Assembly (NCBI RefSeq): GCF_019977395.1
Contig: NZ_AP024660.1
Span: 1,054,001-1,118,000 of the forward strand
Reading direction: 5' to 3'
DNA length: 64,000 bases
Origin: Arthrobacter sp. NicSoilC5
GTDB lineage: Bacteria; Actinomycetota; Actinomycetes; Actinomycetales; Micrococcaceae
Positions within the stretch are counted from its first letter, which is position 1. The number at the start of each line of letters is the position of its first letter. The position numbers and the translations under genes were made by a program. The notes under the pieces are model-generated. The model was given only the letters and a program-made list of their open reading frames with translations. It was not told where the DNA came from and did no database searches. This document shows positions 25,569 through 59,762 of this stretch, piece after piece.

Positions 25569-25609
25569 GCCTCAGTAGCTCAGGGGATAGAGCAGCGGCC
25601 TTCTAATCC
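25569..25609 (+). pseudogene. 5' half of host tRNA-Arg (UCU), cut by prophage integration
   Basis: Acceptor strand GCCTCAG, D-arm GCTC...GAGC, 5' anticodon stem GCGGC and loop CTTCTAA with anticodon TCT are all present. After TAATCC the sequence becomes phage DNA. The matching 3' half is at 59763-59794: its CCGC pairs with GCGG, and its CTGGGGC pairs with GCCTCAG with one G-U. Joined, they make a normal 73-base tRNA. As it stands, neither half can be a working tRNA. Confidence 0.9.
25601..25609. other. attL core
   Basis: The core CCTTCTAATCC (25599-25609) matches CCTTGTAATCC at the other end with a single difference (C here, G there). Because the host base C is kept on this side, the crossover must lie within TAATCC (25604-25609), a 6-base overlap suited to a tyrosine recombinase. 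Confidence 0.88.
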
Positions 25610-25923
25610 AAAGGCTTGCGATCTGAGACCAGCTTAGGTTTTGGGGCGGTTTCGCCTCCACCGGGATCGGTCGGGTTGAGGGCCTCGCAGGCCTTCCCCG
25701 TCTTCAGCCATTCCACGTCAACATCGCAGACGACTGCCCAGGCATTGATAACGAGCTTGCCTGGCGCTGTTGCCCCACGCTCGTAGTTCGACACCGTAGC
25801 GCGACTGATGCCCAACTCCGCGGCTATGTCTGCCTGTTCAAAGTTCTTCAGTTCACGCGCTAGGCGGAGCCGGTCTTTCAGCTGAAATTCCGGGGTTCGG
25901 CTGTGCATCGGTTGAGTGCTCAT
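25603..25923 (-). CDS. Prophage repressor, integrated (short) form, XRE-type
   Basis: 106 aa. A helix-turn-helix of the Cro/CI (XRE) family lies at about residues 15-70: LKDRLRLARELKNFEQADIA, then ELGISRATVSNYERGATAP. The last residues KPLD and the TAG stop lie in the attL core; the stop uses the complement of host bases C25603-A25605. In the circular phage the base is G, giving TAC (Tyr), and the frame continues 26 codons to a Val-Ala-Ala end (132 aa). Integration therefore makes a shorter, presumably stable repressor. Palindromic operators lie at its own promoter. Its 3' end is antisense to the host tRNA transcript. Confidence 0.9.
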   Translation of the reverse strand: MSTQPMHSRTPEFQLKDRLRLARELKNFEQADIAAELGISRATVSNYERGATAPGKLVINAWAVVCDVDVEWLKTGKACEALNPTDPGGGETAPKPKLVSDRKPLD

Positions 25924-25924
25924 G

Positions 25925-25958
25925 AGACAAAGCTATGTCACAGACAAAGCTTTGTCTA
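25925..25958 (-). promoter_or_regulatory. Repressor promoter with two operator-like dyads
   Basis: On the minus strand TAGACA (25958-25953), a 17-base spacer, then TAGCTT (25935-25930) puts the start near the repressor ATG at 25923, so the mRNA may be leaderless. A perfect palindrome AGACAAAGCTTTGTCT (25942-25957) covers the -35, and an imperfect copy (25925-25940) covers the -10 and start. This suggests autoregulation by the repressor. Confidence 0.6.
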
Positions 25959-26024
25959 CATTCCAAAACACAAGTTTTCGTGTAATTCGAAACACAAGCC
26001 TTGATACTTCCTTGATGCAAGTCT

Positions 26025-26052
26025 TTGACATATGCCAACAGTGCGCTATCTT
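26025..26052 (+). promoter_or_regulatory. Early rightward promoter, probably leaderless
   Basis: TTGACA (26025-26030), a 16-base spacer and TATCTT (26047-26052). The expected start is at or beside the ATG at 26059, so the first early gene would be a leaderless mRNA; no ribosome site is seen. A near-copy of the region, TTTGACA(T/C)ATGCCAA, occurs at 26024 and 26051 as a direct repeat and could bind a regulator. Confidence 0.6.
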
Positions 26053-26058
26053 TGACAC

Positions 26059-26268
26059 ATGCCAAAAACCGCACCCAGCCTGATCACAACGGCGCAAGCG
26101 TCCAAGGTCTCGGGCAAGAACTGGCGGACCATCATTCGGCTTGTAGAACGGGGCGACCTCAGCCCCGCTCAGAAGCTTCCTGGTCTTCGCGGTGCTTACC
26201 TGTTCCACCCCAGCGACATCGAGGCCCTAAAGCCAGCGCCAGCTGAGCCGCCGGCCGAGACCCCCTAG
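26059..26268 (+). CDS. Small winged-helix protein, excisionase or Cro-like
   Basis: 69 aa. LITTAQASKVSGKNWRTIIRLVERGDLSPAQKL ... YLFHPSDIEAL has the pattern of MerR/excisionase-type DNA-binding helices (helix, turn, recognition helix, then a Lys/Leu-rich wing). As the first rightward gene opposite the repressor it is placed where Cro or Xis sits in small temperate actinophages. Which of the two it is cannot be told from sequence. Confidence 0.65.
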   Translation: MPKTAPSLITTAQASKVSGKNWRTIIRLVERGDLSPAQKLPGLRGAYLFHPSDIEALKPAPAEPPAETP

Positions 26269-26286
26269 CCACTCGGCACACAAAAA

Positions 26287-26326
26287 GGCGGTCCAGTACC
26301 TCTCGCCAAAGAATCACTGGACCGCC
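26287..26326 (+). terminator. Hairpin after the first early gene, possible attenuator
   Basis: 11-base arms GGCGGTCCAGT (26287-26297) and ACTGGACCGCC (26316-26326) with an 18-base loop. There is no T-run, so it may only partly end transcription. Confidence 0.45.
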
Positions 26327-26382
26327 CATAACCAATCCAAACGCCGGCTTTGCCGACCCTCGAATCAGAATCGAGTCTATCA

Positions 26383-26946
26383 ATGGTGCCCTCAGCCACG
26401 CAGGAAAACCTTGAAGTGGACCCGCCCCGGAACCTGTTCTTCGGTGTTGAAGACCGGAAGCTGGGCGGGCCCGCCGGCCTGACGGACAAGTACCTGTACA
26501 CCGAGCAGCGCCGCCGGCAGCAGCTGGCCCAGCGCGTCATCGACTCGGCCATCCAGGTAGCCGACGCTATCCGCACCATGCGGAAGTTCGACCGGACCGG
26601 CAACGCCGACCAGGTACTGGACCACCTGAACGCCTCCCTTGAAGACCTGGACAAGCACGTCCACAACCTCACCGCCGAGGTAGAGAAGTCCGTAGACCGC
26701 TACGGCGACGAGCTGGACCACATCCACACCCGCGACGAAGCCGCAGCGCTCGCCGCCCTCAATGCCCCTGCTGTCACCGAACCCCCAGCGGTGGCAGCAG
26801 GCCCCAACGCGGCAGCCGCAGAGCTAACCCCCCAGGCTCCTGCGGCTGCCGCCCACGCTTACCCTAGCCCCGCCGATGTTGCCCAGGTCCAGCGGAATCT
26901 GGAACGGGCATTGGACCGCCGCGTCGCTTACTCGGTCGGCCCGTGA
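26383..26946 (+). CDS. Hypothetical early phage protein
   Basis: 187 aa from the ATG at 26383 (an in-frame TTG lies at 26350). An acidic, helical middle (about residues 45-125: TEQRRRQQLAQRVIDSA..., LNASLEDLDKHVHNLTAEVEK) suggests a coiled coil. An Ala/Pro-rich linker and a basic C-terminal helix follow. No known motif. It overlaps the next gene by 4 bases (GTGA). Confidence 0.6.
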   Translation: MVPSATQENLEVDPPRNLFFGVEDRKLGGPAGLTDKYLYTEQRRRQQLAQRVIDSAIQVADAIRTMRKFDRTGNADQVLDHLNASLEDLDKHVHNLTAEVEKSVDRYGDELDHIHTRDEAAALAALNAPAVTEPPAVAAGPNAAAAELTPQAPAAAAHAYPSPADVAQVQRNLERALDRRVAYSVGP

Positions 26947-27182
26947 AGACCCGCATCCGGCGCTTCGCCGTCGTCCATCCCGTGGGGAAGCCGCCGTTCA
27001 AGGACCGCGCCGAGCTGCACTACCGGGACAACAAGGAGCTGGCGGACCAGATCGCCACGTACGCCCGGAGCAAGTGGCCGATGCCGCAGCAGATCGCGGT
27101 GGACGTCCACGCACAGCACATCCTCATCAACGGCCGGCACAGCGCCAGCTACTCCATCCACGAACACAGGAGCAACCCATGA
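26943..27182 (+). CDS. Hypothetical small basic phage protein
   Basis: 79 aa, GTG start overlapping the previous stop. It has many Arg/Lys and His residues and an ELADQIATYARSKW helix followed by a hydrophobic strand. No family recognised. Its stop overlaps the ATG of the next gene (ATGA). Confidence 0.55.
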   Translation: MKTRIRRFAVVHPVGKPPFKDRAELHYRDNKELADQIATYARSKWPMPQQIAVDVHAQHILINGRHSASYSIHEHRSNP

Positions 27183-27382
27183 GCATGAAGTCACCTTCAG
27201 TGCGGGTCGGCCGGAATCGCCGCCGCATCTTCCTCTACCTCCCGTTCCTGGTCATCGGCGCGCTGCTGTTCCTCGCCTCCACCGAGACCGCCCCCGTCAT
27301 CAACTCCGCCTACCTTGCAGGCGTCACCCTCCTACTGGCCGGCGCCGCCGGATTCATCCTTGAGACAGGACACACGAAATGA
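27179..27382 (+). CDS. Small phage membrane protein, two membrane segments
   Basis: 67 aa from the ATG at 27179, with AGGAG just upstream. A basic N-terminus (RVGRNRRR) leads to hydrophobic stretches IFLYLPFLVIGALLFLA and SAYLAGVTLLLAGAAGFIL, predicting both ends inside. An early-operon position argues against a lysis holin. Function unknown. Confidence 0.6.
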   Translation: MSMKSPSVRVGRNRRRIFLYLPFLVIGALLFLASTETAPVINSAYLAGVTLLLAGAAGFILETGHTK

Positions 27383-27765
27383 CCGAACAGCCCGTCGAGA
27401 CTGAACAGCAGTTCCTCGGCAATGAAGCCCAGATCAATGACCCCATCGTCCAGCCCGCCGTTGAACCGCCGTTCTTGACGGCCATCGGCGAAAAGCATGC
27501 GGATCTGATTCAGCCCCGGCAGCATTACTCCCCGAACGCTCACCTTCGCCGCCCGGCATGGTCACCAGTGGACAACGTTGAGCTGACCGCTCTGGCCCGC
27601 AAGAGCGCAGTGGCCAACCGGAAGCTGGCCATTGCCAAGGCAGAGTCTGTCAGGGCTGAGGAATCGCTCAAGCTGGCGCTGGACGTCGAGAACCAGGCAG
27701 CCGAAGAGGTCTATGCGGCCAACGAAGCGCTGGTGGCCTTCACCCGGAAGGACACCGGACTGTGA
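27379..27765 (+). CDS. Hypothetical phage protein with C-terminal coiled coil
   Basis: 128 aa, ATGA overlap with the previous gene. A Pro/Gln-rich N-terminal part is followed by an Ala/Glu-rich helix (LARKSAVANRKLAIAKAE and on to residue 115) likely to form a coiled coil. No recognised domain. Confidence 0.55.
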   Translation: MTEQPVETEQQFLGNEAQINDPIVQPAVEPPFLTAIGEKHADLIQPRQHYSPNAHLRRPAWSPVDNVELTALARKSAVANRKLAIAKAESVRAEESLKLALDVENQAAEEVYAANEALVAFTRKDTGL

Positions 27766-29111
27766 ACGCGACCTTCCAGGAACTCCACATCGACCAGCTG
27801 GTCATCCACGCCAAGAACGTCCGCAAAGACGTAGGTATCGTCACCGACCTGGCGAACAGCATCACCGAGCAGGGCATCCTCCAGCCGCTCGTCGTCGCCC
27901 CCGCGCTCGCCGGTGATGGGTACACCATCATTGCCGGGCACCGCCGGCACGCCGCGGCGAAGCTCGCCAACGTCGATTCCCTGCCGTGCGTCATCCGCGA
28001 AGACCTGGACACCGAGCCGAAGCAGCTGGTGGCCATGCTTGTGGAGAACACCCAGCGCGCGGACCTGACCCCGGTGGAAGAGGCCACGGCCTATCAGACC
28101 ATCCTGGACTTCGGGGACGGCTTCAACGTCAAGACTGTTGCCAAGGCCACGGGCCGATCCCAGAGCCACGTCCGGAAGCGCCTGCTGCTGACCAAGCTCA
28201 ACGGGGACGCCAAGGGCAAGCTGGAAGACCAGACCCTGAACGTTGACCAGGCGCTGGTGCTTGTGGACTTTGCCGACGACGAAGAGGCCACGGCCAAACT
28301 CCTTGAGGCAGCCGCCGAGGGACGGAACTGGAACTACACCGTCGAGATGGAGACCCGCCGCCGGAACGCACCGGTGAAGGTGGCCAATGCAAAGGCCGCG
28401 CTAGAGGCCGCTGGCATCGAACTGATCCCCGAAGAGCACCGCTACTCGGGCCCGTGGAACCGGCTCTACGAGCACGAAGCTGCGCGCACGATGGAAGAAC
28501 ATGCCGCCGCCGGCCACCGCGCATTCATCAGCATGTGGGGCGACATCGAGTGGTTCGAAAAGCCCGCCAAGGCACCCAAGGTAACGCCGGAACTGACCGA
28601 CGAAGAGAAGGAAGCCAAGCGCCGCGAAGCTCAGCTCACCGCCGCCCTGGACATTGCCCACGCCGTACGCGCCGAACACCTCAAAGGCGTCATCAACGAC
28701 CCACCCGAAGGCGCCGCAGACGAAGCCCTCTACCGCCTCCTGGTCCGCCATCTCCACTCCCACGTCAACCTCTTCGCAGAAATCACCGGCCGCCACCCGG
28801 ACAGCGAAAGCGACCACCAAGGCATCAAGGCCGCGCTCGCCGCGATGACCGTGGAGCAGATGGCGCTGCTCCTGCACATGGCCGAGCGGTCCCAGGAAGA
28901 CGAGCTGCTGAAGCTCTGGGCATGGGACGCCGGCGACTACCGCCACACGTGGGGCCCCAAAGGCTGGATCGAGGACCTGGGCAGCGTCTACCACTACGAG
29001 CTGTCCGCGGTCGAGCAGGAAGTACTGGACCACTTCCAGCAGGCCCATGATGCCCGCCTCGCTGAAACCGCAACCGAAGACCAGGAAGACGAGGACGCCG
29101 ACGATGAGTAA
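27762..29111 (+). CDS. ParB/Spo0J-like DNA-binding protein
   Basis: 449 aa. The ParB N-domain is clear: VRKDVGIVTDLANSITEQGILQPLVV, IIAGHRRHAAAKLAN (the GxRRxxA-type CTP-binding motif) and VENTQRADLTPVEEA. A helix-turn-helix follows (TVAKATGRSQSHVRKRLLL). The long C-terminal half is acidic and specific to phages. With no ParA partner nearby a role in partition is unlikely; early gene control or replication is the better guess. GTG start overlapping the previous stop. Confidence 0.85.
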   Translation: MNATFQELHIDQLVIHAKNVRKDVGIVTDLANSITEQGILQPLVVAPALAGDGYTIIAGHRRHAAAKLANVDSLPCVIREDLDTEPKQLVAMLVENTQRADLTPVEEATAYQTILDFGDGFNVKTVAKATGRSQSHVRKRLLLTKLNGDAKGKLEDQTLNVDQALVLVDFADDEEATAKLLEAAAEGRNWNYTVEMETRRRNAPVKVANAKAALEAAGIELIPEEHRYSGPWNRLYEHEAARTMEEHAAAGHRAFISMWGDIEWFEKPAKAPKVTPELTDEEKEAKRREAQLTAALDIAHAVRAEHLKGVINDPPEGAADEALYRLLVRHLHSHVNLFAEITGRHPDSESDHQGIKAALAAMTVEQMALLLHMAERSQEDELLKLWAWDAGDYRHTWGPKGWIEDLGSVYHYELSAVEQEVLDHFQQAHDARLAETATEDQEDEDADDE

Positions 29112-29493
29112 CCACTTCCTCACCGAGAACCCGGACCAAGAGCACGTCTGCGGCTGCGGCTACCGGCCCGAAGTTCTGGACGACTTCGCCCCGATCGGCA
29201 AGCAGTGGATGGCCCGGCAGGTAGTCCTGGACCACGTGAAGGCTTTCAGCGAGGCCCCCGCTCCCACGCCCTCGGACCCATTCCTGGTGGACCACGCCGA
29301 GTTCCCGCGTGCCGGCGTCCGCCGCACCGCGGACGGCCAGTGGCTCCTGACGCTCTGGGACGGCATGGGCATTCAGCACCACATTGACGAGCCGGCCTTC
29401 CCGAGACGTGAGGATGCTTTCGACTACGGCTGGATGACCATCGGAGCCTGCCGACAAGCCGGCACCAACCTGAACGGATGGGCCAAGGTATGA
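29104..29493 (+). CDS. Hypothetical phage protein with CxC near the N-terminus
   Basis: 129 aa from the ATG at 29104, overlapping ParB-like by 8 bases. An HVCGCGYRPEVLDDFAP motif may bind metal. A Trp-rich C-terminal half (QWLLTLWDGMG, YGWMTIGACRQAG) suggests a compact domain. No family recognised. Confidence 0.55.
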   Translation: MSNHFLTENPDQEHVCGCGYRPEVLDDFAPIGKQWMARQVVLDHVKAFSEAPAPTPSDPFLVDHAEFPRAGVRRTADGQWLLTLWDGMGIQHHIDEPAFPRREDAFDYGWMTIGACRQAGTNLNGWAKV

Positions 29494-29591
29494 GCCCCAA
29501 AGTAGAGGCCACAAGGCCCGAGAAAGTGGAGCGCTGCGGATCCTGCAACGCCCCGATCAACTTGCAGACCGGCGAATGCCGCTGCTCCTAA
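29490..29591 (+). CDS. Tiny zinc-ribbon-like phage protein (33 aa)
   Basis: ATGA overlap with the previous gene. The C-terminal half has CGSCNAP ... GECRCS, four cysteines spaced like a zinc knuckle. Such mini-proteins are frequent in early operons of actinophages; the role is unknown. Confidence 0.55.
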   Translation: MSPKVEATRPEKVERCGSCNAPINLQTGECRCS

Positions 29592-29611
29592 CGGAAGGAG
29601 GGGAACTCAGC

Positions 29612-30079
29612 ATGGGCTACCGATACCGTGGCGATCAACCGATGACCGCCGAAGAACTCCTGGACATGGCTCGCGCCCAGGCAGAGACCATCATCGCCGC
29701 GGCCAAGCTCAAAGCCATGCAGGAAGCCAGACTCATCCACGAACTTGCGTACGACCAAGGCCTTGCGCTCGCTGAGCGCGAATACGCCAGGCGCGACGAA
29801 CGTGAAGCCGACCGGAAGCTGGCAAAAGAAGCAGTGCTGAAGCGTGTAGCTGAACGCAGGCTGAAGGCAGCAGCTTTCGAAGTAGCCGGCAAATTACCCA
29901 AGGACGCCAAAGCCACTGACCGGCTGGAGAACATCGAGTATCTGGTCAACGCCGGCTGCACAGTAGACGAAGCCTTGAGTCGCTCCGGATACCACGCTGT
30001 GGACTCTTTCAAGCGAGCTGCCTACCGCCACGGCCGAAATGACCTGGTCCGTTTTGTGTCGGAGCGACAAAGAACGTGA
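29612..30079 (+). CDS. Hypothetical phage protein, helical
   Basis: 155 aa from the ATG at 29612 behind a strong AAGGAGGGG site. A long charged helix (about residues 10-95, rich in Ala, Glu, Arg) is followed by a C-terminal part, IEYLVNAGCTVDEALSRSGYHAVDSFKRAAYRHGRND, that looks like a helix-turn-helix. A DNA-binding regulator is possible. Confidence 0.55.
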   Translation: MGYRYRGDQPMTAEELLDMARAQAETIIAAAKLKAMQEARLIHELAYDQGLALAEREYARRDEREADRKLAKEAVLKRVAERRLKAAAFEVAGKLPKDAKATDRLENIEYLVNAGCTVDEALSRSGYHAVDSFKRAAYRHGRNDLVRFVSERQRT

Positions 30080-30237
30080 GCAGCAGCCAGCGCCCAGAGT
30101 TGTGCGCCATGGGATCCAGCCACCGCCGGCAGCCCACCCCCGGATGCACCTGCCCCGAGTGGCGGTACCACCCGGCATACCCGAGACCCACCAACCCCGA
30201 CTGTCCGAAACACGGAGAGACCCAGCATGAACCCTGA
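30076..30237 (+). CDS. Small Cys/His-rich phage protein (53 aa)
   Basis: GTGA overlap with the previous gene. TPGCTCPEWRYHPAYPRPTNPDCPKHGE gives Cys and His residues suited to zinc binding. The next gene starts inside its last codons. Confidence 0.5.
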   Translation: MSSSQRPELCAMGSSHRRQPTPGCTCPEWRYHPAYPRPTNPDCPKHGETQHEP

Positions 30238-30346
30238 CTGCCGAGACGGAAAGCACGCATCATGCAGCGGCGACGGCTGGGACGCCACCGCTGACCAGCC
30301 AGCACCATGCCCCTGCGAATGCCACCAAGAAGCGAGAGCCGCATGA
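30227..30346 (+). CDS. Small Cys-rich phage protein (39 aa)
   Basis: MNPDCRDGKHASCSGDGWDA ... CPCECHQEA: six cysteines in 39 residues. This type, with DC-x4-H-x2-C and a terminal CxCxCH, recurs in actinophage early operons. It overlaps both neighbours. Confidence 0.55.
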   Translation: MNPDCRDGKHASCSGDGWDATADQPAPCPCECHQEARAA

Positions 30347-31212
30347 TCCTCACCGTAAACACCCTGGACCTCCGACAGGCCCTCATGGCCGTCACCCCCC
30401 ACACTGGAGACCCGAAACTTAGCCAGGCGCTCGCCGTTGTCCACTTCACCGCCACGGACGGCATGCTCCACGTCACCGCCTGCAACACCGTCACCCTGGG
30501 CCATGCCGTGGCATCAGTCTGGGAAGCCGAGGGCCTCACTGGCGACGTGAACGACGACGCCTTCAACCTGCCGGCCGATGTCGCCAAGGAACTTCTGACG
30601 ATCTTCAAGGCCAAGGGCAAGCAGCCGGAGGACGAGATCGGGGACACGCTCCGCATCACCGTCCGCGACTCCAGCATCACGTTCATGGACGTCTCCGGCC
30701 TCTTCCCCGGCAAGGAGTTCAAGATTCCGCGGGAAGACGACACCGGAGAATTCCCCCTCGCCTTCGGCCGCCTCCTCATCCAGGCAGTCCTGTCCGACCG
30801 CGTGATGCCGGAGCGTCTGGTGGCCGCCGGCCGACTGGTACGTCTCTTCGCCACGGCCTCGCAGGCCTACGGTGAACCGCTCGTCATCGAACCTACCGAG
30901 GACGCCAAGCGCATCCTGATTAGCTGCGGCGAATCCTTCCTCGGGCTGCTGATGCCCATCCGCTCCGAAGACGGCTCCACAGTCGCCAACGAGCTGAACG
31001 CCTTCCGGGAAGGGTGGATGAACCGTCTCCCCGAGCTGGCGCACGCCGGCGGCGGCAAGCTGCCCGAATCACCCAAGCCAGGGGACGCGAACTTCCTACG
31101 CGACGGACACGGCTTCCACGGGTCCGTAACCATCAGCTCCGGCAGCAAAGTCCAGGACATCACCGATGCCGTGTTCAACCGCGTAGTAGAGATTGTGGAG
31201 CCCCACCTATGA
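30343..31212 (+). CDS. Sliding-clamp-like phage replication protein
   Basis: 289 aa, ATGA overlap. The N-terminus (MILTVNTLDLRQALMAVTPHTGD, ALAVVHFTATDGMLHVTACNTVT) follows the strand-helix-strand pattern of DNA polymerase III beta clamp domains. ILISCGESFLGLLMPIR resembles the clamp C-terminal LMPxR motif, here followed by about 80 extra residues. It may raise processivity of the host polymerase. The assignment rests on pattern, not on a search. Confidence 0.55.
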   Translation: MILTVNTLDLRQALMAVTPHTGDPKLSQALAVVHFTATDGMLHVTACNTVTLGHAVASVWEAEGLTGDVNDDAFNLPADVAKELLTIFKAKGKQPEDEIGDTLRITVRDSSITFMDVSGLFPGKEFKIPREDDTGEFPLAFGRLLIQAVLSDRVMPERLVAAGRLVRLFATASQAYGEPLVIEPTEDAKRILISCGESFLGLLMPIRSEDGSTVANELNAFREGWMNRLPELAHAGGGKLPESPKPGDANFLRDGHGFHGSVTISSGSKVQDITDAVFNRVVEIVEPHL

Positions 31213-31544
31213 GCGGCGTGCTGGACGGGATCAAAGACCGCCTAGAACGAATTACTAAGCGGCTCGAATCATGGGACGGCCGCGACCCTGCGAGGGTCCG
31301 GGCCACCACAGTTGAAGCCGAGGACGACTTCGGGATATTCAACGTCCGCAACTATCACGGGTCCTACATCTCGGCCCTTGATGCGGCGGCGGAACAGTTT
31401 CTCGATACAACTCCGAAGCTGATCGCCGCCGTCGAAGCCGTTGAGAAGCTGGCCGCCGGTTCAGAAGAGCACGGTAGCAATCTGGTGTTCGCGGTCGATA
31501 TCCGCAAGGCAATCGGTGCGGCGCTTGGGGAGGCGAGCACCTAA
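31209..31544 (+). CDS. Hypothetical phage protein
   Basis: 111 aa from the ATG at 31209, overlapping the previous stop. Charged N-terminal helix LDGIKDRLERITKRLESW and an Ala-rich helical C-terminus. No motif recognised. It lies between the clamp-like and replication genes. Confidence 0.55.
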   Translation: MSGVLDGIKDRLERITKRLESWDGRDPARVRATTVEAEDDFGIFNVRNYHGSYISALDAAAEQFLDTTPKLIAAVEAVEKLAAGSEEHGSNLVFAVDIRKAIGAALGEAST

Positions 31545-31547
31545 CCC

Positions 31548-32696
31548 ATGTTCTTCCAGATCGATGACCAGTTCCACGTCAACCAGAAAGCGAAAACACT
31601 TGCACGCAAAGCGCTGATGAATGATGTCCGGGGCCTCGCCGCCCTGGGCTTGTGGACCATGGCCGGATCGATGTGCCAAGCGGCACTCAACGACGGCGTG
31701 TCCACCGTAGAGGACCTGGTATCGATCACCCTGCACCATGGTGTAGCTGTCGAGCTCGCAGACCTCCTGGTCTCCGCTGAACTCTGGCACACCACCGGCC
31801 ACACCTGCGAACGCTGCCCCGCCGTCAAACCCGGCACGTACATCTACCACGACTGGTTCGCCATGGGCTACGACACCGCAGCCCAGGTCAAGACCACCCG
31901 AGGGAAGCGCAAGGAACTCAAGGACCCGGCCATCATCGCCGCCGTCTGGGCACGTGACTGCATCGATGACCCGGCGAACCCCGCCGTTGGTCTCTGCCGT
32001 TACTGCCAGCGCGAAATCAAGCGAGCAGACCGCAAATCCGAGTTCCGCGGCGAGATGGACCACGTCGTACCCAACCTCTACTGCGGCACCCGCAACATCG
32101 TCCTGGCCTGCCTCGCATGCAACCGCAAGAAGGGCGCACGCACCCCCGAGCAAGCCGGCATGACCCTACACCCCGCCCCGCGCTCGCAGGAGTCCGCTGG
32201 AGCCTCTGAGAACGTCTCGCCCGCACCTGCGGCCGCTGAGATGCCCCAGGCCCCGGACGCCGCCGCTGAAGCGCCGATCAGGCCGGATATCAAATCTGAT
32301 TCGCTGGAGGAACCAGAGCTGATATCCGACGAAAAAGCTATCCCCGTGGGCGCGCGTACGGGCATGCGCCCGGGCAGGGCAGGGCAGGGCAGGGTAACCG
32401 AAGGGTTAAGAGATGGGGTTACCGCTCCTGAATCCTCCAGACCATCCCGCAACAGAAGAAGGCGAGGCAAGGGCAAACCCCAGCCCGCTGCTGCCTCTAG
32501 GCAGCAAGGGACGCATGCCCCTGCTTCTACCTCTCGCCACGATGCAGGCCCAACCCCGGCAGTGAATGCACCCGGCAGGTACGGATCCCCTTGGCATGGC
32601 TGGAGCGGCAAGCCCTCCACCGTCACCGAGACCACCTGCACCGAGCACAACGAAGAACAGCCCTGCCGCAAATGCCAGGAGGACTCCGGCAAGTGA
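31548..32696 (+). CDS. Phage replication-type protein with HNH domain
   Basis: 382 aa. The N-terminal 100 residues (FFQIDDQFHVNQKAKTLARKAL, GLAALGLWTMAGSMCQ) resemble the winged-helix region of actinophage replication/DnaD-like proteins. Residues about 145-200 form an HNH domain with two CxxC pairs (CRYCQ, CLACN) around MDHVVP and NIVLACLACNRKKG. The rest is Pro/Ala/Arg-rich linker. GGGCA tandem repeats (32372-32394) fall inside the linker and could slip out of frame. Confidence 0.7.
   Translation: MFFQIDDQFHVNQKAKTLARKALMNDVRGLAALGLWTMAGSMCQAALNDGVSTVEDLVSITLHHGVAVELADLLVSAELWHTTGHTCERCPAVKPGTYIYHDWFAMGYDTAAQVKTTRGKRKELKDPAIIAAVWARDCIDDPANPAVGLCRYCQREIKRADRKSEFRGEMDHVVPNLYCGTRNIVLACLACNRKKGARTPEQAGMTLHPAPRSQESAGASENVSPAPAAAEMPQAPDAAAEAPIRPDIKSDSLEEPELISDEKAIPVGARTGMRPGRAGQGRVTEGLRDGVTAPESSRPSRNRRRRGKGKPQPAAASRQQGTHAPASTSRHDAGPTPAVNAPGRYGSPWHGWSGKPSTVTETTCTEHNEEQPCRKCQEDSGK
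32372..32394. repeat. GGGCA tandem repeat, 4.6 copies
   Basis: Pentanucleotide repeats inside the HNH replication gene. Gain or loss of one unit would shift the frame of the last third of the protein while sparing the HNH domain. Confidence 0.8.
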
Positions 32697-33013
32697 ACGC
32701 AACCCAAGCCCCCGCAATGTCCGAATCCCAGTTCCAGTCCGCCGTCATCGAACTGGCCAAGCTCAACGGCTACCGGCTGGTCTACCACACGCATGATTCC
32801 CGCCGGTCCCAGAAGGGCTTCCCTGATCTGGTCCTGGTTAGTGAGCACCGGCAACGGGCACTGTTCCGGGAGCTGAAGACAACCAAAGGCCGGCTAACCC
32901 AGGAGCAGTTCGACTGGATCAGCAGCATGCAGCTCGCCAAACTCAATGCCGGCGTCTGGCGCCCCGAAGACCTCACCAACGGCCACATCCTCAAAGACCT
33001 GAGAGGAGCCTGA
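32693..33013 (+). CDS. VRR-NUC domain nuclease
   Basis: 106 aa, GTGA overlap with the previous gene. The PD-(D/E)xK core of VRR-NUC nucleases is seen: ESQFQSAVIELAKLNGY, SQKGFPDLVLV, RELKTTKGRLTQEQFDWI and AGVWRPEDL. Stand-alone VRR-NUC proteins are common in phages and probably cut branched DNA such as Holliday junctions. Confidence 0.85.
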   Translation: MNATQAPAMSESQFQSAVIELAKLNGYRLVYHTHDSRRSQKGFPDLVLVSEHRQRALFRELKTTKGRLTQEQFDWISSMQLAKLNAGVWRPEDLTNGHILKDLRGA

Positions 33014-47217: not shown

Positions 47218-47218
47218 C

Positions 47219-53117: not shown

Positions 53118-53440
53118 ACGAGTTCCTGAACCTGGACAACCCGGCGCTCTGGGCGCTCGCCGTGGGCTTCTTCAGCCCGCCGGTCATCAGCACGATCCAG
53201 CAGTCCCGCTGGTCGGCCCGGATCCAGTCCCTGGTGGCCTTCGGCTTCTACCTGGTGGTGGCTGCCGTGACGGCGTACGTGCTGGGCCTGTTCGCCATCG
53301 GGGACATCTTCCGGCTGGCGCTGCTGATCTTCCTGGCCGCCGGCACCAGCTACAAGACGCTCTGGAAACCAACCGGGATCAGCCCGGCGATTGAGCGTGT
53401 AACCTCCCCGACCAACGCGCCCGAACACCGGGCAGAGTAG
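53114..53440 (+). CDS. Holin
   Basis: 108 aa, GTGA overlap with the endolysin. Two to three hydrophobic segments: PALWALAVGFFSPPVIS, LVAFGFYLVVAAVTAYVLGLF and LALLIFLAAGTSYKTLW, with a charged C-terminus. Position after the endolysin supports holin function. Confidence 0.72.
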   Translation: MNEFLNLDNPALWALAVGFFSPPVISTIQQSRWSARIQSLVAFGFYLVVAAVTAYVLGLFAIGDIFRLALLIFLAAGTSYKTLWKPTGISPAIERVTSPTNAPEHRAE

Positions 53441-53451
53441 GAGCATCTTCG

Positions 53452-54138
53452 ATGGGCTTTCCCGTAGGCATGCAGTTGGCCACGATCGCGTTCGGCATTC
53501 CGCTGACGGCGACGGGCAAGGAAGTGGTCACGAACGTGACGGTGAAGCCCACGGCGCGGCTGATCTGGGCAGCCACCGGCCAGCCGCTTCCGGAGTTTGA
53601 GGACAGCTTCACGGCCGAGGCCGGCCAGCTCGGCCAGTTCCAGGTCCCGTTCGTGGACCAGCCCGGGTTCATCGATTCCCTGGGCAACGCGGTGACGGAC
53701 TTCGCCTACCAGGTAACGGCGTCATGGCAGTTCGGCAACGCCCGCCCGATCACCTGGTCCAAGAACCTCAAGCCGCTGCTGGGGCAGACCGGGCCCATCG
53801 ATCTGGACTTGGTCCCGGACGGCCCGGTCTCCATCCCGGTCACGGCTCCCACGGCCTCGGTGCTGGGCTTCAACGGCCGGACCGGGTTCATCACCTTGCA
53901 GGATTCGGACCTGCCGGAACGGCTCTCGGATGCTCAACTATCTGCCACTTATGTCCCTGGTAATCCGACGCTGGCAGTGACCTACAACAGTGACGGTTCC
54001 GTTGCGTCCACGACCGAGAATGGCGTGCTGACCACGTTCACCTACAACGCTGACGGCACCGTGAACACGCAGACCCGCGCCGGGGTAACCAAGACGTTCA
54101 CCTACGACACCAACGGCAACGTGACAGGAGCGGCCTGA
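53452..54138 (+). CDS. Tail-fibre-like protein ending in short YD-like repeats
   Basis: 228 aa. After a folded N-terminal domain (SFTAEAGQLGQFQVPF) and a FNGRTG collar motif, the C-terminal 52 residues are a 20-residue repeat seen 2.6 times: TYNSDGSVAS..., TYNADGTVNT..., TYDTNGNVTG. These resemble the YD/RHS strand repeats. It is likely a side-fibre or connector to the esterase encoded next. Confidence 0.65.
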   Translation: MGFPVGMQLATIAFGIPLTATGKEVVTNVTVKPTARLIWAATGQPLPEFEDSFTAEAGQLGQFQVPFVDQPGFIDSLGNAVTDFAYQVTASWQFGNARPITWSKNLKPLLGQTGPIDLDLVPDGPVSIPVTAPTASVLGFNGRTGFITLQDSDLPERLSDAQLSATYVPGNPTLAVTYNSDGSVASTTENGVLTTFTYNADGTVNTQTRAGVTKTFTYDTNGNVTGAA

Positions 54139-55358
54139 TGGACGTTGTAACCCTCGGCATGGCCAAGGCCGACGCCAAGAAGAAGTATGCGGCGGCACCA
54201 GCGCCGCAGTTCACCGCCGCCCTGTTCGGTGACTCGATCACGGCCAGGAACTTCGGCGGATGGACCCCAGCATCGGGCGAGACGACGATCTACAACGACT
54301 CACGAGGCTGGTTCCACCACGCGAACAACCTGCTCGGGCATCCGTTCGACCTGGTCAAGAACGCTGGCGTGGGCGGCAACACCACAACCCAGATGCTCGC
54401 CCGCATCACGGACATCACTGCCATCAACCCGCTCCCGGCATGGTTGTTAGGCCTCGGCGGCATCAACGACCAGGGCGCGCTCAACCCGGCGCTCACCATC
54501 AGCAACCTGAAGGCGATCTTCACTAAGGCATTCGACGCTGGCTATAAGCGCATCGTGTGGGGCACGATCACCCCGGACGCCGGTAACACCGGGCAGCGGT
54601 GGACCATCGACCAAGTGAACGACTGGCTGAAGGCATACGCTGCCGTGACACCGAACTTCATCCTGGTCAACTGGAACGAGGCTTTCCTCGATCCCACAAA
54701 CGGGAACCCGCGCACCGGGTACACGTCGGACGGCCTCCACCCAGCGCCACTCGGCGCCGCCGTTATGGGCCAGTACCTTGCCGACGTGCTGCGCCCGCTC
54801 GTCCCGGCCTCGTCGCGGCTGCTGATGAGCAACAGCTCCACCGTTGTCAGCGCCAACCCGATGCTGAACGGCAGCGTCTCAGGCGTTGCCACCGGGTATA
54901 ACCAGGCTGGCTTCACCGCTTACAAGATGCCCCGCTATGACGGGCGTGCCGGGGAATGGCAGATGCTCATCTCCGCTGCTGCGGGCGGGGCCACGCTGGT
55001 CCAGAACGTAGGCGTCTCTGGTGGGACGTTCACGCCTGGTGATGTCGTCTTCGCTGAGCTTGAATTCGAAACTGACGACGACTGGACCGCAGCGACCGAG
55101 ATGTCCTTGTCGATCCAGATGGCCGGCGACGCATCGGTTAACACCGCCGTAAACCGGGCAGTGGACATGTTCCAGAGCGCCGGCGTCCCGGCTCTGAGCG
55201 TCAACCCCCGCCGCGGGATCATGCGCACCCCGCGTATCACCGTCCCGGCAGGTGTGACCACGGCGGCGGCGGGAAAGATCATCCTGACCTACAAATTTGA
55301 CGGCATCGGAACAACAAGGATCGCCCGCATGGGCGTCTACAAGGTGGTGGCAGCATGA
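54138..55358 (+). CDS. SGNH/GDSL-type hydrolase on the tail
   Basis: 406 aa. Block I AALFGDSITARNFGG (Ser in GDS), block II NAGVGGNTTTQM (Gly), block III GLGGINDQGAL (Asn) and block V TSDGLHPAPLG (Asp and His) make a complete SGNH active site in residues 25-215. The C-terminal 190 residues are a beta-sandwich, probably carbohydrate-binding. It may deacetylate surface or wall polysaccharide to allow adsorption. The stop of the fibre gene overlaps its ATG. Confidence 0.85.
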   Translation: MDVVTLGMAKADAKKKYAAAPAPQFTAALFGDSITARNFGGWTPASGETTIYNDSRGWFHHANNLLGHPFDLVKNAGVGGNTTTQMLARITDITAINPLPAWLLGLGGINDQGALNPALTISNLKAIFTKAFDAGYKRIVWGTITPDAGNTGQRWTIDQVNDWLKAYAAVTPNFILVNWNEAFLDPTNGNPRTGYTSDGLHPAPLGAAVMGQYLADVLRPLVPASSRLLMSNSSTVVSANPMLNGSVSGVATGYNQAGFTAYKMPRYDGRAGEWQMLISAAAGGATLVQNVGVSGGTFTPGDVVFAELEFETDDDWTAATEMSLSIQMAGDASVNTAVNRAVDMFQSAGVPALSVNPRRGIMRTPRITVPAGVTTAAAGKIILTYKFDGIGTTRIARMGVYKVVAA

Positions 55359-55948
55359 TCCAGACAGTTGAGCTTGCAGACCGGCGCAACCTGAAAGCCA
55401 CCCCCTACCCCAAGGGCGTGCCCATCCGCCGCGGCGCGGGCATGTACTACGCGGCACCAGGGCTGACGTCCACGGCCACACCCAGCCAAGGCCAGCTCGC
55501 CCTGGCACCACTGGACATCAACCGGGTCTGTGTCCTGACGGCGTTGGTCGCAGACATTGCAACGGTTGGCACAGCCGGCGCTGTGCTTCGGCTGGCGATC
55601 TACGCCGACGATGGAACAGGCACCTACCCTGGGGCGCTCGTAGCCGACGCAGGAACCATCGACGCGACCGTGGCAGGCGCGGCAACCTTGACGCTCGCAA
55701 CGCCTATCCCGCTCCCGCCCGGGCGCTACTGGATTGGTGGGGCCAGCCAAGGGGCACCAACAACCGCGCCTGTCGTCCGCTGCGTCAGCACGTCCGGGGC
55801 CATCATTATGCCAACCACTTCTGCGTCGGTGACAACGCTCAACGTTGGGGCCGCCCAGAACTCAGTGACAGGCGCGGCACCAGCGAACTTCACCACGGCG
55901 CTTGGCTTTACTTCCGCCGTGCCGCGAGTGCTGGCCCAGCTGACGTAG
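55355..55948 (+). CDS. Hypothetical fibre-region protein, beta-rich
   Basis: 197 aa, ATGA overlap with the esterase gene. Many short strands (GTAGAVLRLAIYADDGTGTYPGALVAD, GRYWIGGASQGAP). A jelly-roll or carbohydrate-binding fold is likely. The last 41 bases overlap the end of the opposite-strand gene. Confidence 0.6.
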   Translation: MIQTVELADRRNLKATPYPKGVPIRRGAGMYYAAPGLTSTATPSQGQLALAPLDINRVCVLTALVADIATVGTAGAVLRLAIYADDGTGTYPGALVADAGTIDATVAGAATLTLATPIPLPPGRYWIGGASQGAPTTAPVVRCVSTSGAIIMPTTSASVTTLNVGAAQNSVTGAAPANFTTALGFTSAVPRVLAQLT

Positions 55949-57335
55949 TTCTCGACAGATCACTGCCGAGAACGTCTGGCCGGGGCATCTTCTCAGGGGA
56001 TGCCCCGGCTCCGAAACTGCAGAAGCCCAGGGCGAATCCGAATAGAACAGCAACGGCAGGCCAGGACAACGGCTCCATAACGAAGAATGCCGGCAGGAAA
56101 ATGGAACCCGCTATTGCGCCCGTCCGTTGCCACGGGTCAAGCCCGCGGCGCCGGAGTCCGGCGAGAACCGTCAGGACCAGCACGGCAACCAGAACGAAAC
56201 CCACGAGCCCATAGTCTGCATAGGCGGTGAAGAACTGGTTATCAACGGTGCCGAAGGATGCCAGGTTGTCGGTGTTGGCGGCCTTTGCAACTGCGCGGGG
56301 TCCCCCGCCAATAATCACCTTGGCCCCGGACGTGATTCTAGTGACCACTTCGAATCCTCCAAGCCGTACCGCTTGCTCCTGAGCTGATAGCTGGTCCAGT
56401 CGGCCGGAGAGCAAGCTCCCAGGCTGAAGGCCAAGGACGCCAAGGACCACGGCGAGGACGGCAACCGCAAAGCGGCCAACCTTGCTGCCACCTGCGTGAA
56501 CGCGGGCAACGAGCATGGCGAGAATCCCGACTCCAACCATTAGCAGGATGCTGCGGGAGCCGCTCGCGGCTGCCCCAGCCAGGGGTACCGCGACAGAAGG
56601 AACCCGAGCAAACAGCCATTCCCGTTTGCCCCAAACCGGGCGGGCCATATTTGCGACGGCGACAAAGGCCATGAAAACGCACAGGACTAGAGGGTGCCCG
56701 AAGAGCGCTGCTGCACGGAAAGCGGAACGGGCGTTTGCCTGCACCTGGAAATTCGTGAACTCATACAAGGGATGCTTGACGATGGCCTCGTATATGGCGA
56801 TAGCAGCCATGGCGTAGGCGATGAAGGTTAGCGTCTTCAGGAGGTTCTGCCGCTCGGCGGCATCGGTCGCAACGCCAACGCCCCCTGCAAGGGCAAGGCC
56901 GGCGGCTACCGCAATGCCGGCCACAAGGCGGAACTGATCAAAACCCAGCAGCCCAACGGTGAGCAACGCGAGTCCACCGAGGATGCCGAGAACGGACAAA
57001 GGTAGCCGGAGGGGCCTCCCGCGGCGCTTCAGGAGAAGCAGAACGCAGCCCAGCAGCACAATGAAAACCACAGCGTAGGCAGTTACCTGGGGCGTGCGCG
57101 TCTCCTGGTAGCCGGGCACCAGTGGTATGGCTATAGCGAATGAGACGGCGAGGGCCCCGATGCGGGAAGCCGAATCTCGCGCCCATAGCACTGCGGCGAT
57201 TAGGCCAAGCGCGACAAGGGCAGCGGCGCTCATCCCCAAAAACGATATGGCAAAGGCGCCAGCGATAGCTGCAACAGGAAATGCGTACTTCAAACGTCCC
57301 CCTAGGTCCCCGCCAATAATACGGGCTAGGATCAT
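55908..57335 (-). CDS. O-antigen-ligase-like polytopic membrane protein, possible lysogenic conversion
   Basis: 475 aa with about ten membrane segments. The periplasmic-loop region with FRAAALFGHPLVLCVFMAFVA, AGAAASGSRSILLMVGVG and GTVDNQFFTAYADYGLVGFVLVA is the Wzy_C/WaaL pattern (conserved SRS and late loop motif). It would alter polysaccharide or teichoic-like polymers. It runs against all late genes and has lower GC, as phage moron genes do. The ATG at 57335 is used; a GTG at 57368 is an alternative. Ribosome sites are weak for both. Confidence 0.72.
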   Translation of the reverse strand: MILARIIGGDLGGRLKYAFPVAAIAGAFAISFLGMSAAALVALGLIAAVLWARDSASRIGALAVSFAIAIPLVPGYQETRTPQVTAYAVVFIVLLGCVLLLLKRRGRPLRLPLSVLGILGGLALLTVGLLGFDQFRLVAGIAVAAGLALAGGVGVATDAAERQNLLKTLTFIAYAMAAIAIYEAIVKHPLYEFTNFQVQANARSAFRAAALFGHPLVLCVFMAFVAVANMARPVWGKREWLFARVPSVAVPLAGAAASGSRSILLMVGVGILAMLVARVHAGGSKVGRFAVAVLAVVLGVLGLQPGSLLSGRLDQLSAQEQAVRLGGFEVVTRITSGAKVIIGGGPRAVAKAANTDNLASFGTVDNQFFTAYADYGLVGFVLVAVLVLTVLAGLRRRGLDPWQRTGAIAGSIFLPAFFVMEPLSWPAVAVLFGFALGFCSFGAGASPEKMPRPDVLGSDLSRTTSAGPALAARRK

Positions 57336-57368
57336 GGCGAACCCAACAAGCCCGCGAAAGGCCTCCAC

Positions 57369-57500
57369 GTGGACATTGATATAGAAGCAACGCAGTTCCT
57401 GCCTCAGCCGCTTAACGACATCGCAATCTATACGATCGCCGTCATCCTGCTCATCGGCTTCGGCAATGCCGCTTGGAAGGCTCTCCGCAGGGGCCAATAG
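57369..57500 (+). CDS. Possible 43-aa single-pass membrane protein
   Basis: GTG with AAGG at 7 bases. DIDIEATQFLPQPLNDIAIYT, a hydrophobic IAVILLIGFG stretch, then AWKALRRGQ. It starts at the CACGTG palindrome also used by the possible alternative start of the opposite gene. Coding status is uncertain. Confidence 0.35.
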   Translation: MDIDIEATQFLPQPLNDIAIYTIAVILLIGFGNAAWKALRRGQ

Positions 57501-57575
57501 ACCGGTTAAGTTCCCCTGCCGGATCGGGCCCGTTCGGCGTAGACTGACTGGACCGCTAAGACACATGGAGACAAT

Positions 57576-57603
57576 GGCCCCCGGCGCTGGAACGCCGGGG
57601 GCC
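57576..57603 (+). terminator. Hairpin upstream of the phage tRNA
   Basis: Arms GGCCCCCGGCG (57576-57586) and CGCCGGGGGCC (57593-57603). It would keep late read-through away from the tRNA. Confidence 0.55.
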
Positions 57604-57614
57604 TCTCCTGTGTT

Positions 57615-57644
57615 TTGGGGGCGCAGTTCCGGCGGCGCTACACT
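57615..57644 (+). promoter_or_regulatory. Candidate promoter of the phage tRNA
   Basis: TTGGGG (57615-57620), an 18-base spacer and TACACT (57639-57644). The expected start lies about 6 bases before the tRNA at 57657. A dedicated promoter would be needed for tRNA supply in the lysogen. Confidence 0.5.
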
Positions 57645-57656
57645 GGGTAGCGCCTC

Positions 57657-57729
57657 GCCCCAGTAGCTCAGGGGATAGAGCAGAAGCCTTCTAATCTTCG
57701 GGTCGGGGGTTCGATTCCCTCCTGGGGCA
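57657..57729 (+). tRNA. Phage-borne complete tRNA-Arg (UCU), replacement for the broken host copy
   Basis: 73 bases. GCCCCAG pairs perfectly with CTGGGGC. D-arm GCTC/GAGC. The anticodon arm is GAAGC-CTTCTAA-TCTTC with anticodon TCT (reads AGA and AGG), and the T loop is TTCGATT. No CCA. The anticodon stem GAAG/CTTC differs from the host GCGG/CCGC and is self-consistent, so this is an independent gene and not a scar of integration. Its loop CCTTCTAATC is shared with the att core but the next bases differ (TTC, not CGC). Confidence 0.93.
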
Positions 57730-57736
57730 CGCATTG

Positions 57737-57773
57737 AAAAGCGCCGGCCACCGTCATGGTGGCCGGCGCTTTT
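57737..57773. terminator. Bidirectional terminator between phage tRNA and integrase
   Basis: 16-base perfect arms (57737-57752 and 57758-57773), from AAAAGCGCCGGCC with the complement ending in TTTT, giving T-runs on both strands. Confidence 0.9.
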
Positions 57774-57780
57774 GTCGTGC

Positions 57781-58671
57781 CTAGGCGGCAAGTGGTTCGT
57801 TCCGGTCGGCGGCGCGGCGCCGGCCGGAGCGTTCCGGGATGGTGATCACGGGCAGGCTGTCGAATCCGTGGCGGATGCCTTCGGGCTTGAGCTTCAGGTA
57901 GAGGGTGGTGGTGTCCATGTTGGAGTGCCGCATGCTGCGCTGGACGACAAAGTCACTGACACCGGCTTCGTGCATCTCGGTAGCCAGGGCGGCTCGCAGG
58001 TCATGAGGCCGGTGCTTGAGACCCATGCGCTTGATGGCTTCCCCGATCAGGCCAGAGACTGAGTTGCCCATGATGTGTCCCTCGCCGGCAGCGTGGAGCT
58101 TGTTCTTGGTTCGGTTGGGGAACCAGTAACCGGTCCTGGGCATCTGGAGGAATAGCGGCCAGACGGCAGCTGGCACGGGCAGCGTGGCCGGTTTGCGGCC
58201 CTTCCCGATGGTGGACAGCGTCCGGTTGTCCCAGTCGATGTCGCCGCCGTTGACGGCCGCGATCTCCGAGACTCGTAACCCAAGGTAATAGTGCAGCGCG
58301 ACCATGACGCGGGTCTTCCGGTAGATCCCGGATTCCAGCAGCGCATTGATCTCCTCCACGGTGAACGGGTTCGGTTCGCGTTTCCTGGTGGCCACCCTGG
58401 GCAGCCGGTACGCCGGATTGTCCAACCTCAAACCTTCGTCCTGCATCCATGCGAAGAACGTATGGAGACCCGATCTACGATGCACGCGGGTGGAGTTGGA
58501 CCAATTCTGTCCAGCCATCCACATGATCAGCTGCTTCCTGGTCACCGTCTCCAGATCCACGTCCCGGGCCAGCTGCCGGACGAAGATCAGGCGCTCGCGG
58601 ATGGTCTTGTCGGTGAGGTCCGCCGCTTTCATGCATGCGGTCCAGTAGTTCAGCGTGTCGTTGGTCTCCAT
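57781..58671 (-). CDS. int: Tyrosine-family integrase
   Basis: 296 aa. The N-terminal SAM-like core-binding domain covers about residues 5-90. The catalytic domain has Arg in LGLRVSEIA, Lys in GKGRKPATLP, HxxR in HDLRAALAT, His in MRHSNMD and the nucleophile Tyr in TTTLYLKL. It is small, like XerC and the integrases of BPs-type phages, with no long arm-binding domain. The last residues are EPLAA; an Ala-Ala end after Leu resembles an ssrA tag read by ClpXP. It acts at the 6-base overlap TAATCC. ATG at 58671. Confidence 0.95.
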   Translation of the reverse strand: METNDTLNYWTACMKAADLTDKTIRERLIFVRQLARDVDLETVTRKQLIMWMAGQNWSNSTRVHRRSGLHTFFAWMQDEGLRLDNPAYRLPRVATRKREPNPFTVEEINALLESGIYRKTRVMVALHYYLGLRVSEIAAVNGGDIDWDNRTLSTIGKGRKPATLPVPAAVWPLFLQMPRTGYWFPNRTKNKLHAAGEGHIMGNSVSGLIGEAIKRMGLKHRPHDLRAALATEMHEAGVSDFVVQRSMRHSNMDTTTLYLKLKPEGIRHGFDSLPVITIPERSGRRRAADRNEPLAA

Positions 58672-59256
58672 GAGTAGCCCCCTGCTCTAGTGTGTGTTTC
58701 CGGTGTAGTTTCTACACTGATTTGGCCTTGATTTCTGGCCGATAGTCTGGATCGTTTAACCTTCAACAGCCCTGCAAAGCAGGGCTGTTTTGCTTTTCCA
58801 TCACCGCAGAGGGAGGGAGGGGCGAGGAGGGCAGGGCCTGCCCTTGTCCGACCAACAAAAAAGAGTTTGTGGTCGTTCAAGGCAAGCTGGTGAGACACCG
58901 CGTCAGTCGGTCGGTTGTCGTCGGTTGGCTGCCCGGAGGGGCAGCAAGCTAGGCCCAGGGCATTACTCCTGGGCAGTGGCGGCATGTGCGCACGGATCTG
59001 GTGATACACCCTTAGTGGTGGTCTCACGATCGGTCTTGGCACTCCTTCGCATGTGCGGCCTTCCGGCTCGCTTTATGGACCCTGCCCGTGCGCTCGAAAA
59101 AGGAACTGGCTCTGACCCAGTAAGCAGCCCGTAAATGAAGGCTTAGCGTGTTTTTGGGTGCACGAAAGCACCAGGCGGGGTAGCCGTACCGCCTCAAGAT
59201 GTATGAGGGCGTCACGGGCTATGGACTGGTGCGGTGGCAGTGGTTAGACTGGTGGC
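58672..59256. other. Intergenic control region upstream of int
   Basis: It holds a small dyad GTGTAG-TTT-CTACAC (58703-58717) just before int, and a rightward hairpin AACAGCCCTGC/GCAGGGCTGTT (58765-58789) followed by TTTTGCTTTT. The rest shows no ORF with convincing codon use, although open frames exist on both strands. It is rich in short repeats such as GTCGGTCGGTTG near 58905. Confidence 0.5.
58765..58799 (+). terminator. Rightward terminator near int
   Basis: 11-base perfect arms with an AAA loop and a T-rich tail on the plus strand. It lies between int and the candidate RNA, and would stop plus-strand transcription in the int promoter region. Confidence 0.7.
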
Positions 59257-59330
59257 GCGATCAGGGTCCGTAGCCGGGGACTGATTGCATGGCCGGCGGA
59301 TGGTAGGACATCCAGCCGGCCTTTACTTTT
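59257..59330 (+). ncRNA. Candidate small structured RNA near the right phage end
   Basis: A promoter-like pair TGGACT (59222-59227), 17 bases and TAGACT (59245-59250) predicts a start near 59257. The transcript would form an imperfect hairpin (about 59258-59289) and end at a strong terminator with arms GGCCGGC...GCCGGCC (59291-59321) followed by TTTACTTTT. No protein is encoded. Existence is inferred. Confidence 0.35.
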
Positions 59331-59399
59331 GCGTTGCGTTGGGTTGCTGCCGGAGCCTGTTGTACAGGGCCAGCAGTTCAGCGAGACGCTGCTCGCGGG

Positions 59400-59681
59400 T
59401 CATGTGGCGGGGAGCCAGGTGACCAGGAACGGTCCGTAGTGGAATCGGTAGACCGCTTCTTCCGAGGCGATGGCATCAAACATGCCGGCGTCCTTGGCGA
59501 CGAACCAGTAGGGCGTGCTGTCGAAGTCGCTTCGCTTCTGCATCGCCAGCTGCCGATCTTCCTCCCGGGCGCTCCGGCCTTCCGGATCGGCTATGACCAC
59601 CGAGTGCGGCGGCAGGGCATCCAGCTCCTCCACGGTCGTGAGGATGGCTCCCACAGCGGCCGGCACCGTTGCCGGGCTCAC
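59400..59681 (-). CDS. Small phage protein downstream of the viral-form repressor
   Basis: 93 aa, GTG start. TTVEELDALPPHSVVIADPEGRSAREED, then a strand-rich FDSTPYWFVAKD and VYRFHYGPFLVTWLP. It resembles small actinophage proteins without known function. In the circular phage its GTG overlaps the TGA of the long repressor frame (GTGA), so both would be one coupled operon leading toward int. In the lysogen it is 34 kb away from the repressor promoter. Confidence 0.65.
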   Translation of the reverse strand: MSPATVPAAVGAILTTVEELDALPPHSVVIADPEGRSAREEDRQLAMQKRSDFDSTPYWFVAKDAGMFDAIASEEAVYRFHYGPFLVTWLPAT

Positions 59682-59762
59682 GCTGCTACCTCCATGGGGA
59701 GGTCAAACGTACGGCGGACAGGGAACTCAACAACCTTTGCCGAATCGCCAACCTTGTAATCC
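59678..59762 (-). other. Detached C-terminal tail of the viral-form repressor
   Basis: On the minus strand, from the core GGATTAC onward, the frame of the repressor continues as YKVGDSAKVVEF, then PVRRTFDLPMEVAA, TGA at 59680-59678. No start codon of its own is likely to be used. In the excised genome these 26 codons are joined to the repressor. The end Val-Ala-Ala is like the ssrA degradation signal. Confidence 0.85.
59752..59762. other. attR core
   Basis: CCTTGTAATCC, one base different from attL. Left of it is phage, right of it the host tRNA 3' half. The phage side CAACCTT together with the left phage side AAAGGCTTG forms an imperfect dyad about GTAATCC, probably the two integrase core sites in attP. 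Confidence 0.88.

Follow-up and report, generated by a model that had tools for sequence, protein, structure and literature searches.

A prophage of ~34.2 kb that carries an attachment site within its own repressor gene was analysed in Arthrobacter sp. NicSoilC5. A total of 64,000 nucleotides (nt) from this strain (NZ_AP024660.1, positions 1,054,001-1,118,000; GCF_019977395.1), hereafter the window, contains the prophage at 25604..59756 in window coordinates, as defined by its two attachment-site halves and the rejoined bacterial site (attB). The phage site (attP) lies in the 3' end of a gene for a CI-like helix-turn-helix (HTH) repressor, an anatomy that, as far as sequence can tell, supports integration-dependent immunity. 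With a probability of roughly 0.8, the crossover at a 6-bp core in this gene exchanges an ssrA-like tail of 26 residues for a stop codon from the anticodon loop of a host transfer RNA (tRNA), likely stabilising the repressor, and splits that host tRNA gene, for which a phage-borne tRNA-Arg(UCU) is predicted to compensate. Phage immunity and survival of the cell that carries the prophage are thus both likely to depend on the manner of phage integration. Integration-dependent immunity is known from the mycobacteriophages BPs, Brujita and Charlie and from Gordonia phages such as Wizard. This kind of immunity and tRNA-dependent lysogeny have been described separately as departures from the lambda model, and here one recombination would throw both.

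Exact identity between attP and attB is limited to the 6 bp TAATCC, found at 25604..25609 (left end, attL) and 59757..59762 (right end, attR). The base before the core is C at attL (25603) and G at attR (59756), the former being host nt 35 of the tRNA, the middle base of the anticodon, and the latter the phage base. Replacement of the phage G by the host C converts the phage tyrosine codon TAC into TAG, which ends the lysogen repressor. The repressor gene of the lysogen (HTH_3, CI-type; 25603..25923, minus strand) accordingly encodes 106 amino acids ending in KPLD, and its TAG stop (25603..25605, minus strand) corresponds to tRNA nt 35-37 read in reverse complement. A phage-borne stop codon was ruled out, as TAG occurs only in lysogens, where base C35 of the tRNA replaces the phage G. 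Joining the prophage ends extends the frame through tyrosine and 25 further codons (continuation at 59678..59756, minus strand) to a 132-residue repressor ending in KPLDYKVGDSAKVVEFPVRRTFDLPMEVAA, with MEVAA as last residues, and the TGA of this long form overlaps the GTG start of a 93-residue gene of no assigned function (GTGA; 59400..59681, minus strand). An earlier note on this DNA had described the read-through from 106 to 132 residues, the ssrA-like end of the long form and the overlap with the next gene; the read-through proved exact in the sequence joined in silico, and the MEVAA end and the GTGA overlap were both seen as described.

Evidence that the joined form exists was obtained from virus contigs. 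A search of IMG/VR with the 19-nt attP identified four contigs, and attP lies in the repressor frame in all four. One of them, UViG_3300013105_000043 (L017, also present as L104), has an uninterrupted gene for the identical 132-residue repressor, in agreement with the earlier note's expectation that the circular junction would keep the frame, and 1274 of 1302 aligned positions are identical between this contig and the in-silico junction. The position of attP is likewise shared by eight phages isolated on A. globiformis (Gusanita, Elesar, Nandita, Zaheer, QuinnAvery, Cole, Ryan and Popper; RefSeq duplicates excluded), which are assigned to cluster FF in the QuinnAvery paper as available (PMC13097055): CCTTTGGATTACAAGG lies within the repressor frame in 8/8, and each phage has attP in the repressor, a tRNA-Arg(TCT) near the integrase gene and an integrase 84-88% identical to that of the window. 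On these shared features (integrase, common attP, tRNA-Arg) the sequences place the window prophage with the cluster FF phages at the switch. In Nandita, Ryan, Zaheer and Cole (L008, L009, L011, L012) the deposited switch repressors (97-104 residues) start inside the conserved frame; their heads are probably mis-annotated, the conserved frame starting further upstream.

Screening of 206 same-genus genomes for the integrase (E<=1e-80) revealed matches in 11, comprising seven lysogens with a split host tRNA (G000, G073, G116, G128, G173, G196 and G201, the window included), three distant relatives and one remnant. In all seven split lysogens the repressor ends in PLD followed by a stop, the circle form continues into a tail, and the stop TAG is the reverse complement of nt 35-37 of the host tRNA-Arg(UCU); the lysogen forms were read from DNA and not from protein. 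The three distant relatives (G146, G147 and G165) carry an integrase 59-63% identical to that of the window in another genomic setting. A further screen of 395 genomes of the family (E<=1e-60) gave four matches, of which one was new (G443) and was used as a control.

Could the continuity of the frame be a coincidence of two unrelated ends joined together? The two sites have only 6 bp in common and the core was initially chosen by eye, which speaks for such a coincidence. Its probability is nevertheless close to nil: the frame is kept through attP in 19/19 sources (eight phages, four IMG/VR contigs and seven lysogens, with L017 a near-duplicate of the window), the joined DNA is found in a virus contig, and the rejoined attB is tRNA-Arg(TCT) in 7/7 lysogens. 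Chance read-through was rejected on the joined virus DNA and the 19 kept frames.

Analysis of the repressor tails in the 19 sources revealed 26-34 residues past PLD. The tails end in AA in 12, in TA or VA in six and in AS in one. The integrase of the window is a tyrosine integrase of 296 residues ending in EPLAA (57781..58671, minus strand; PF00589). The AA end of the integrase is present in all eight FF phages, in all seven lysogens and in the remnant G048, with variable preceding residues, and in seven of eight virus contigs, the integrase of the eighth being incomplete; several of these contigs probably represent prophages already counted among the lysogens. None of the four control integrases (G165, G146, G147 and G443; 59-63% identical) ends in AA, which rules out this end as a general integrase trait; the control loci hold intact tRNA-Ser or tRNA-Tyr genes and lack the repressor-attP pattern of the window prophage. 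Proteins ending in AA are infrequent in the phages (3/67 scored in Gusanita and 4/68 in QuinnAvery, one frameshifted gene omitted in each), and by chance repressor and integrase would both belong to this set with a probability of 0.0014 and 0.0026, respectively. The tag encoded by the host transfer-messenger RNA is AESKRTDFALAA, with the end ALAA. The shortened repressor in all seven lysogens, together with ssrA-like ends on most tails and on the integrases, supports the earlier note's reading of the anatomy as integration-dependent immunity.

Some observations weigh against this reading. Tails without the AA end (TA, VA or AS) make up 7/19. The final codons of the tail contain a Shine-Dalgarno-like GGAG or AGGAAGG together with the start codon (GTG or ATG) of the following gene, and the letters of the tail end could be retained because they double as the ribosome-binding site and start of that gene. 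The phage tRNA is intact by ARAGORN in six of the seven lysogens, the seventh reading N in part. Furthermore, Gusanita and FF phages are reported with clear plaques in the available text of PMC10871062; QuinnAvery is described in that of PMC13097055 with turbid plaques and ~53% lysogens.

The non-AA ends and the overlap of the last codons with the ribosome-binding site and start of the next gene are what would be expected if a compact integrase-repressor module by itself placed attP in the repressor gene, both repressor forms being stable and active and the tail being kept for translational initiation of the next gene. We consider this unlikely, as it leaves the invariant AA end of the integrase unexplained: in the annotated FF phages, no following gene on the same strand overlaps the integrase gene in this way. 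Against it stand also the ratio of non-synonymous to synonymous differences (pN/pS) of the tail, 0.38 for the 72 pairs at least 60% alike with the remaining pairs dropped, and the presence of the same layout in BPs, where it was tested by experiment (PMC4557955, as far as available). In BPs the long repressor is reported there to be degraded via its tag and the short form to be active. By analogy with BPs, the long repressor of the window phage is likely to be unstable until integration removes the tail; the long form would be degraded and only the short form would immunise.

The second consequence of integration, which the earlier note had missed, concerns the host tRNA. The 5' part of the host tRNA-Arg(TCT) (nt 1-41; 25569..25609, plus strand) matches the rejoined tRNA at 100% and adjoins the prophage at attL, and the 3' part (nt 36-75; 59757..59796, plus strand) lies at attR; rejoined, the host flanks fold as an intact tRNA-Arg(TCT) by ARAGORN. 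The same program found no tRNA at any of the 14 att loci of the seven lysogens. The host gene is not rebuilt upon integration because attP and attB have only 6 exact bp in common. Within the prophage, a phage-borne tRNA-Arg(TCT) is encoded at 57657..57730 (plus strand), and a cognate tRNA-Arg(TCT) is carried by 8/8 FF phages. Among the 50 tRNA genes of the genome of the window, obtained by reading all Rfam tRNA matches with ARAGORN, the phage copy alone is Arg(TCT), and the remaining arginine tRNAs have the anticodons CCG, ACG and CCT. In the genus, a tRNA-Arg(TCT) match at E<=1e-20 was found in 184 of 206 genomes, each listed with one match. A second search at E<=1e-7 in 20 of the 22 genomes lacking a match found one diverged Arg(TCT) in 16, two in G031 and none in three fragmented assemblies.

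Phages carry tRNAs for other reasons too, Gusanita has a tRNA-Gly in addition, and PMC12766476, as available, reports three tRNAs for the FF phage IsHungry. Integration-dependent immunity could thus be real and the phage tRNA still be incidental cargo for lytic translation, dispensable to the lysogen. This is very improbable in our view, as the isotype fits the split gene in 7/7 lysogens and is the same in 8/8 phages, the genome of the window has no other Arg(TCT) tRNA and the phage tRNA outlasts prophage decay in G048. Dependence of the lysogen on the phage copy is favoured over incidental cargo, and, by analogy with phage Fionnbharth, survival of the lysogen likely rests on this tRNA.

The genome G048 holds a decayed relative of the prophage (L085 4846-15251) in the same chromosomal place as that of the window. 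Its flanks match those on either side of the window prophage, and an integrase fragment and a phage-type tRNA-Arg(TCT) are retained; of the host tRNA a stub of ~20 nt is left, and other tRNA matches there do not exceed 81%. This suggests that the host tRNA was replaced by the phage one and that prophages of this kind can bring about a lasting exchange of the tRNA. Seventeen same-genus genomes (L067-L083) share a diverged tRNA-Arg(TCT) with TAATCT in place of the core TAATCC, and may be poor targets for an integrase of the window type.

Comparison of the repressor heads revealed four groups, with identities of at least 71% within and at most 38% between groups among 11 sources: head A in the window, Gusanita, G201 and G196; head B in Elesar and G073; head C in Nandita, G116 and G173; and head D in QuinnAvery and L016. 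The other eight sources were assigned to groups by eye. BLAST grouping at E<1e-5 merges heads A, B and D, and percent identity was used instead. The linker-PLDYKV module ends every head type. Fusion of four heads to one attP-carrying tail would allow immunity specificity to be swapped with the switch unchanged. Taken together, we are reasonably confident, though less so than for the crossover itself, that a switch with two locks is present, in which one crossover removes the repressor degron via the anticodon-loop stop and makes the host hostage to the phage tRNA, and in which the portable attP-degron tail allows specificity to change without touching the switch. After infection, repressor and integrase would both be made with C-terminal tags and would probably be short-lived through ClpXP-type proteolysis, as judged from BPs. 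If integration came first, the repressor would lose its tail, accumulate and shut down the lytic genes; from then on the cell would live on the phage tRNA, and excision would undo both changes at once.

A stand-alone, tagless head-A repressor of 79-81 residues, 71-73% identical to that of the window, occurs on the far side of the tRNA-Arg in five of the eight FF phages (L007 5059-5298; L008 5050-5295; L011, L012 and L013 5041-5286). The switch repressor of each of these five phages is of another head type, and the tagless copy might make the cell immune to phages with head A, for example Gusanita and the phage of the window. The extra repressor was not found in the head-B and head-C lysogens G073, G116, G128 and G173, and was rejected as a component of the switch for that reason.

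The earlier note is right to place this switch outside mycobacteriophages; the novelty that it claims does not hold, as such immunity has already been published for Gordonia (PMC5559632) and Bifidobacterium (PMC6109161). Reports also exist for Streptomyces cluster BC (PMC12243558) and prophages of M. abscessus (PMC8092301), all four papers being cited from the parts available. Like the window prophage, Brujita and Wizard have AA-type ends on repressor and integrase. A short tyrosine integrase is likewise common to integration-dependent systems and the window, whose integrase has the Brujita type as its nearest known relative (35% identical to that of Brujita). The repressor of Wizard shares 52% identity with head A, and that of Brujita 56% with head B. 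The repressors of Brujita and Wizard hold the peptides ESNPRP and DSNPKP, whereas the FF-type viral repressor has no such peptide; a similar peptide is encoded by the antisense strand of the tRNA 3' half at attR of the window. In Brujita and Wizard attP therefore seems to carry the tRNA 3' half, which in our reading fits restoration of the tRNA through a long core. Gordonia cores are given as 20-40 bp (PMC5559632, in part), unlike the 6-bp core of the window, where the host tRNA is not rebuilt.

In the latter respect the window resembles phages of the Fionnbharth and Gaia type, for which tRNA-dependent lysogeny is described in the available part of PMC10865867: both have a short core (6 exact bp in the window, 8-17 bp in those phages), a host tRNA that is not rebuilt and a cognate phage tRNA. 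The available text of that paper sets tRNA-dependent lysogeny beside integration-dependent immunity as a different system, and its Table 2, as accessible, has neither a tRNA-Arg nor an FF phage. Integrase mutants of those phages are reported there to yield immune cells; the phage of the window is predicted to differ because integration alters the repressor itself. Most of them have a lambda-like integrase with an arm domain, and Gaia an integrase of another family (same source); a Pfam search of the window integrase returned PF00589 and no arm domain, a missing Pfam match being weak evidence. We infer that an FF-type phage unites the two published systems, BPs-type immunity and Fionnbharth-type tRNA dependence, in one strand exchange. 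If so, an integrase mutant of QuinnAvery on A. globiformis would give no immune cells, and a tRNA mutant would integrate and kill. In the openly licensed literature no phage combining both systems was found described, and the portions available of openly licensed Arthrobacter phage papers yielded no description of the attP-in-repressor switch of FF phages. The integrase-repressor layout of the Arthrobacter phage Galaxy is called reminiscent of integration-dependent immunity (PMC5513430, in part); attP of Galaxy is placed there outside the repressor gene and degradation tags are not recognised, in which the window differs.

Upstream of the repressor gene lies a small, divergently oriented HTH gene that resembles those for excisionase or Cro (26059..26268, plus strand; HTH_17 slightly under the Pfam cut-off; phrog_2474 and phrog_66). 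Between the two genes are two putative operator-like sites, GACAAAGCTATGTC (25926) and GACAAAGCTTTGTC (25943), spanning 25926..25956. A perfect palindrome of at least 12 bp recurs in some head-A members only, and hence we propose no operator for heads B, C and D.

The FF papers, e.g. the available part of PMC13097055, do not settle which of the two integrases these phages use. A second tyrosine integrase beside the tRNA-Arg was observed in Gusanita (L102 26041-26961), in the contig closest to the window (L104 7066-7959) and in lysogen G128 (L089 5049-5942). No relative of it was found in the 64 kb of the window besides the tagged integrase, and integration of the window prophage without one bears on this question. 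The place of the second integrase of Gusanita is occupied in the window by a long open reading frame adjoining the phage tRNA (55908-57791, minus strand), whose match to Wzy_C (O-antigen ligase) is weak and falls below the Pfam cut-off and which is perhaps a conversion gene.

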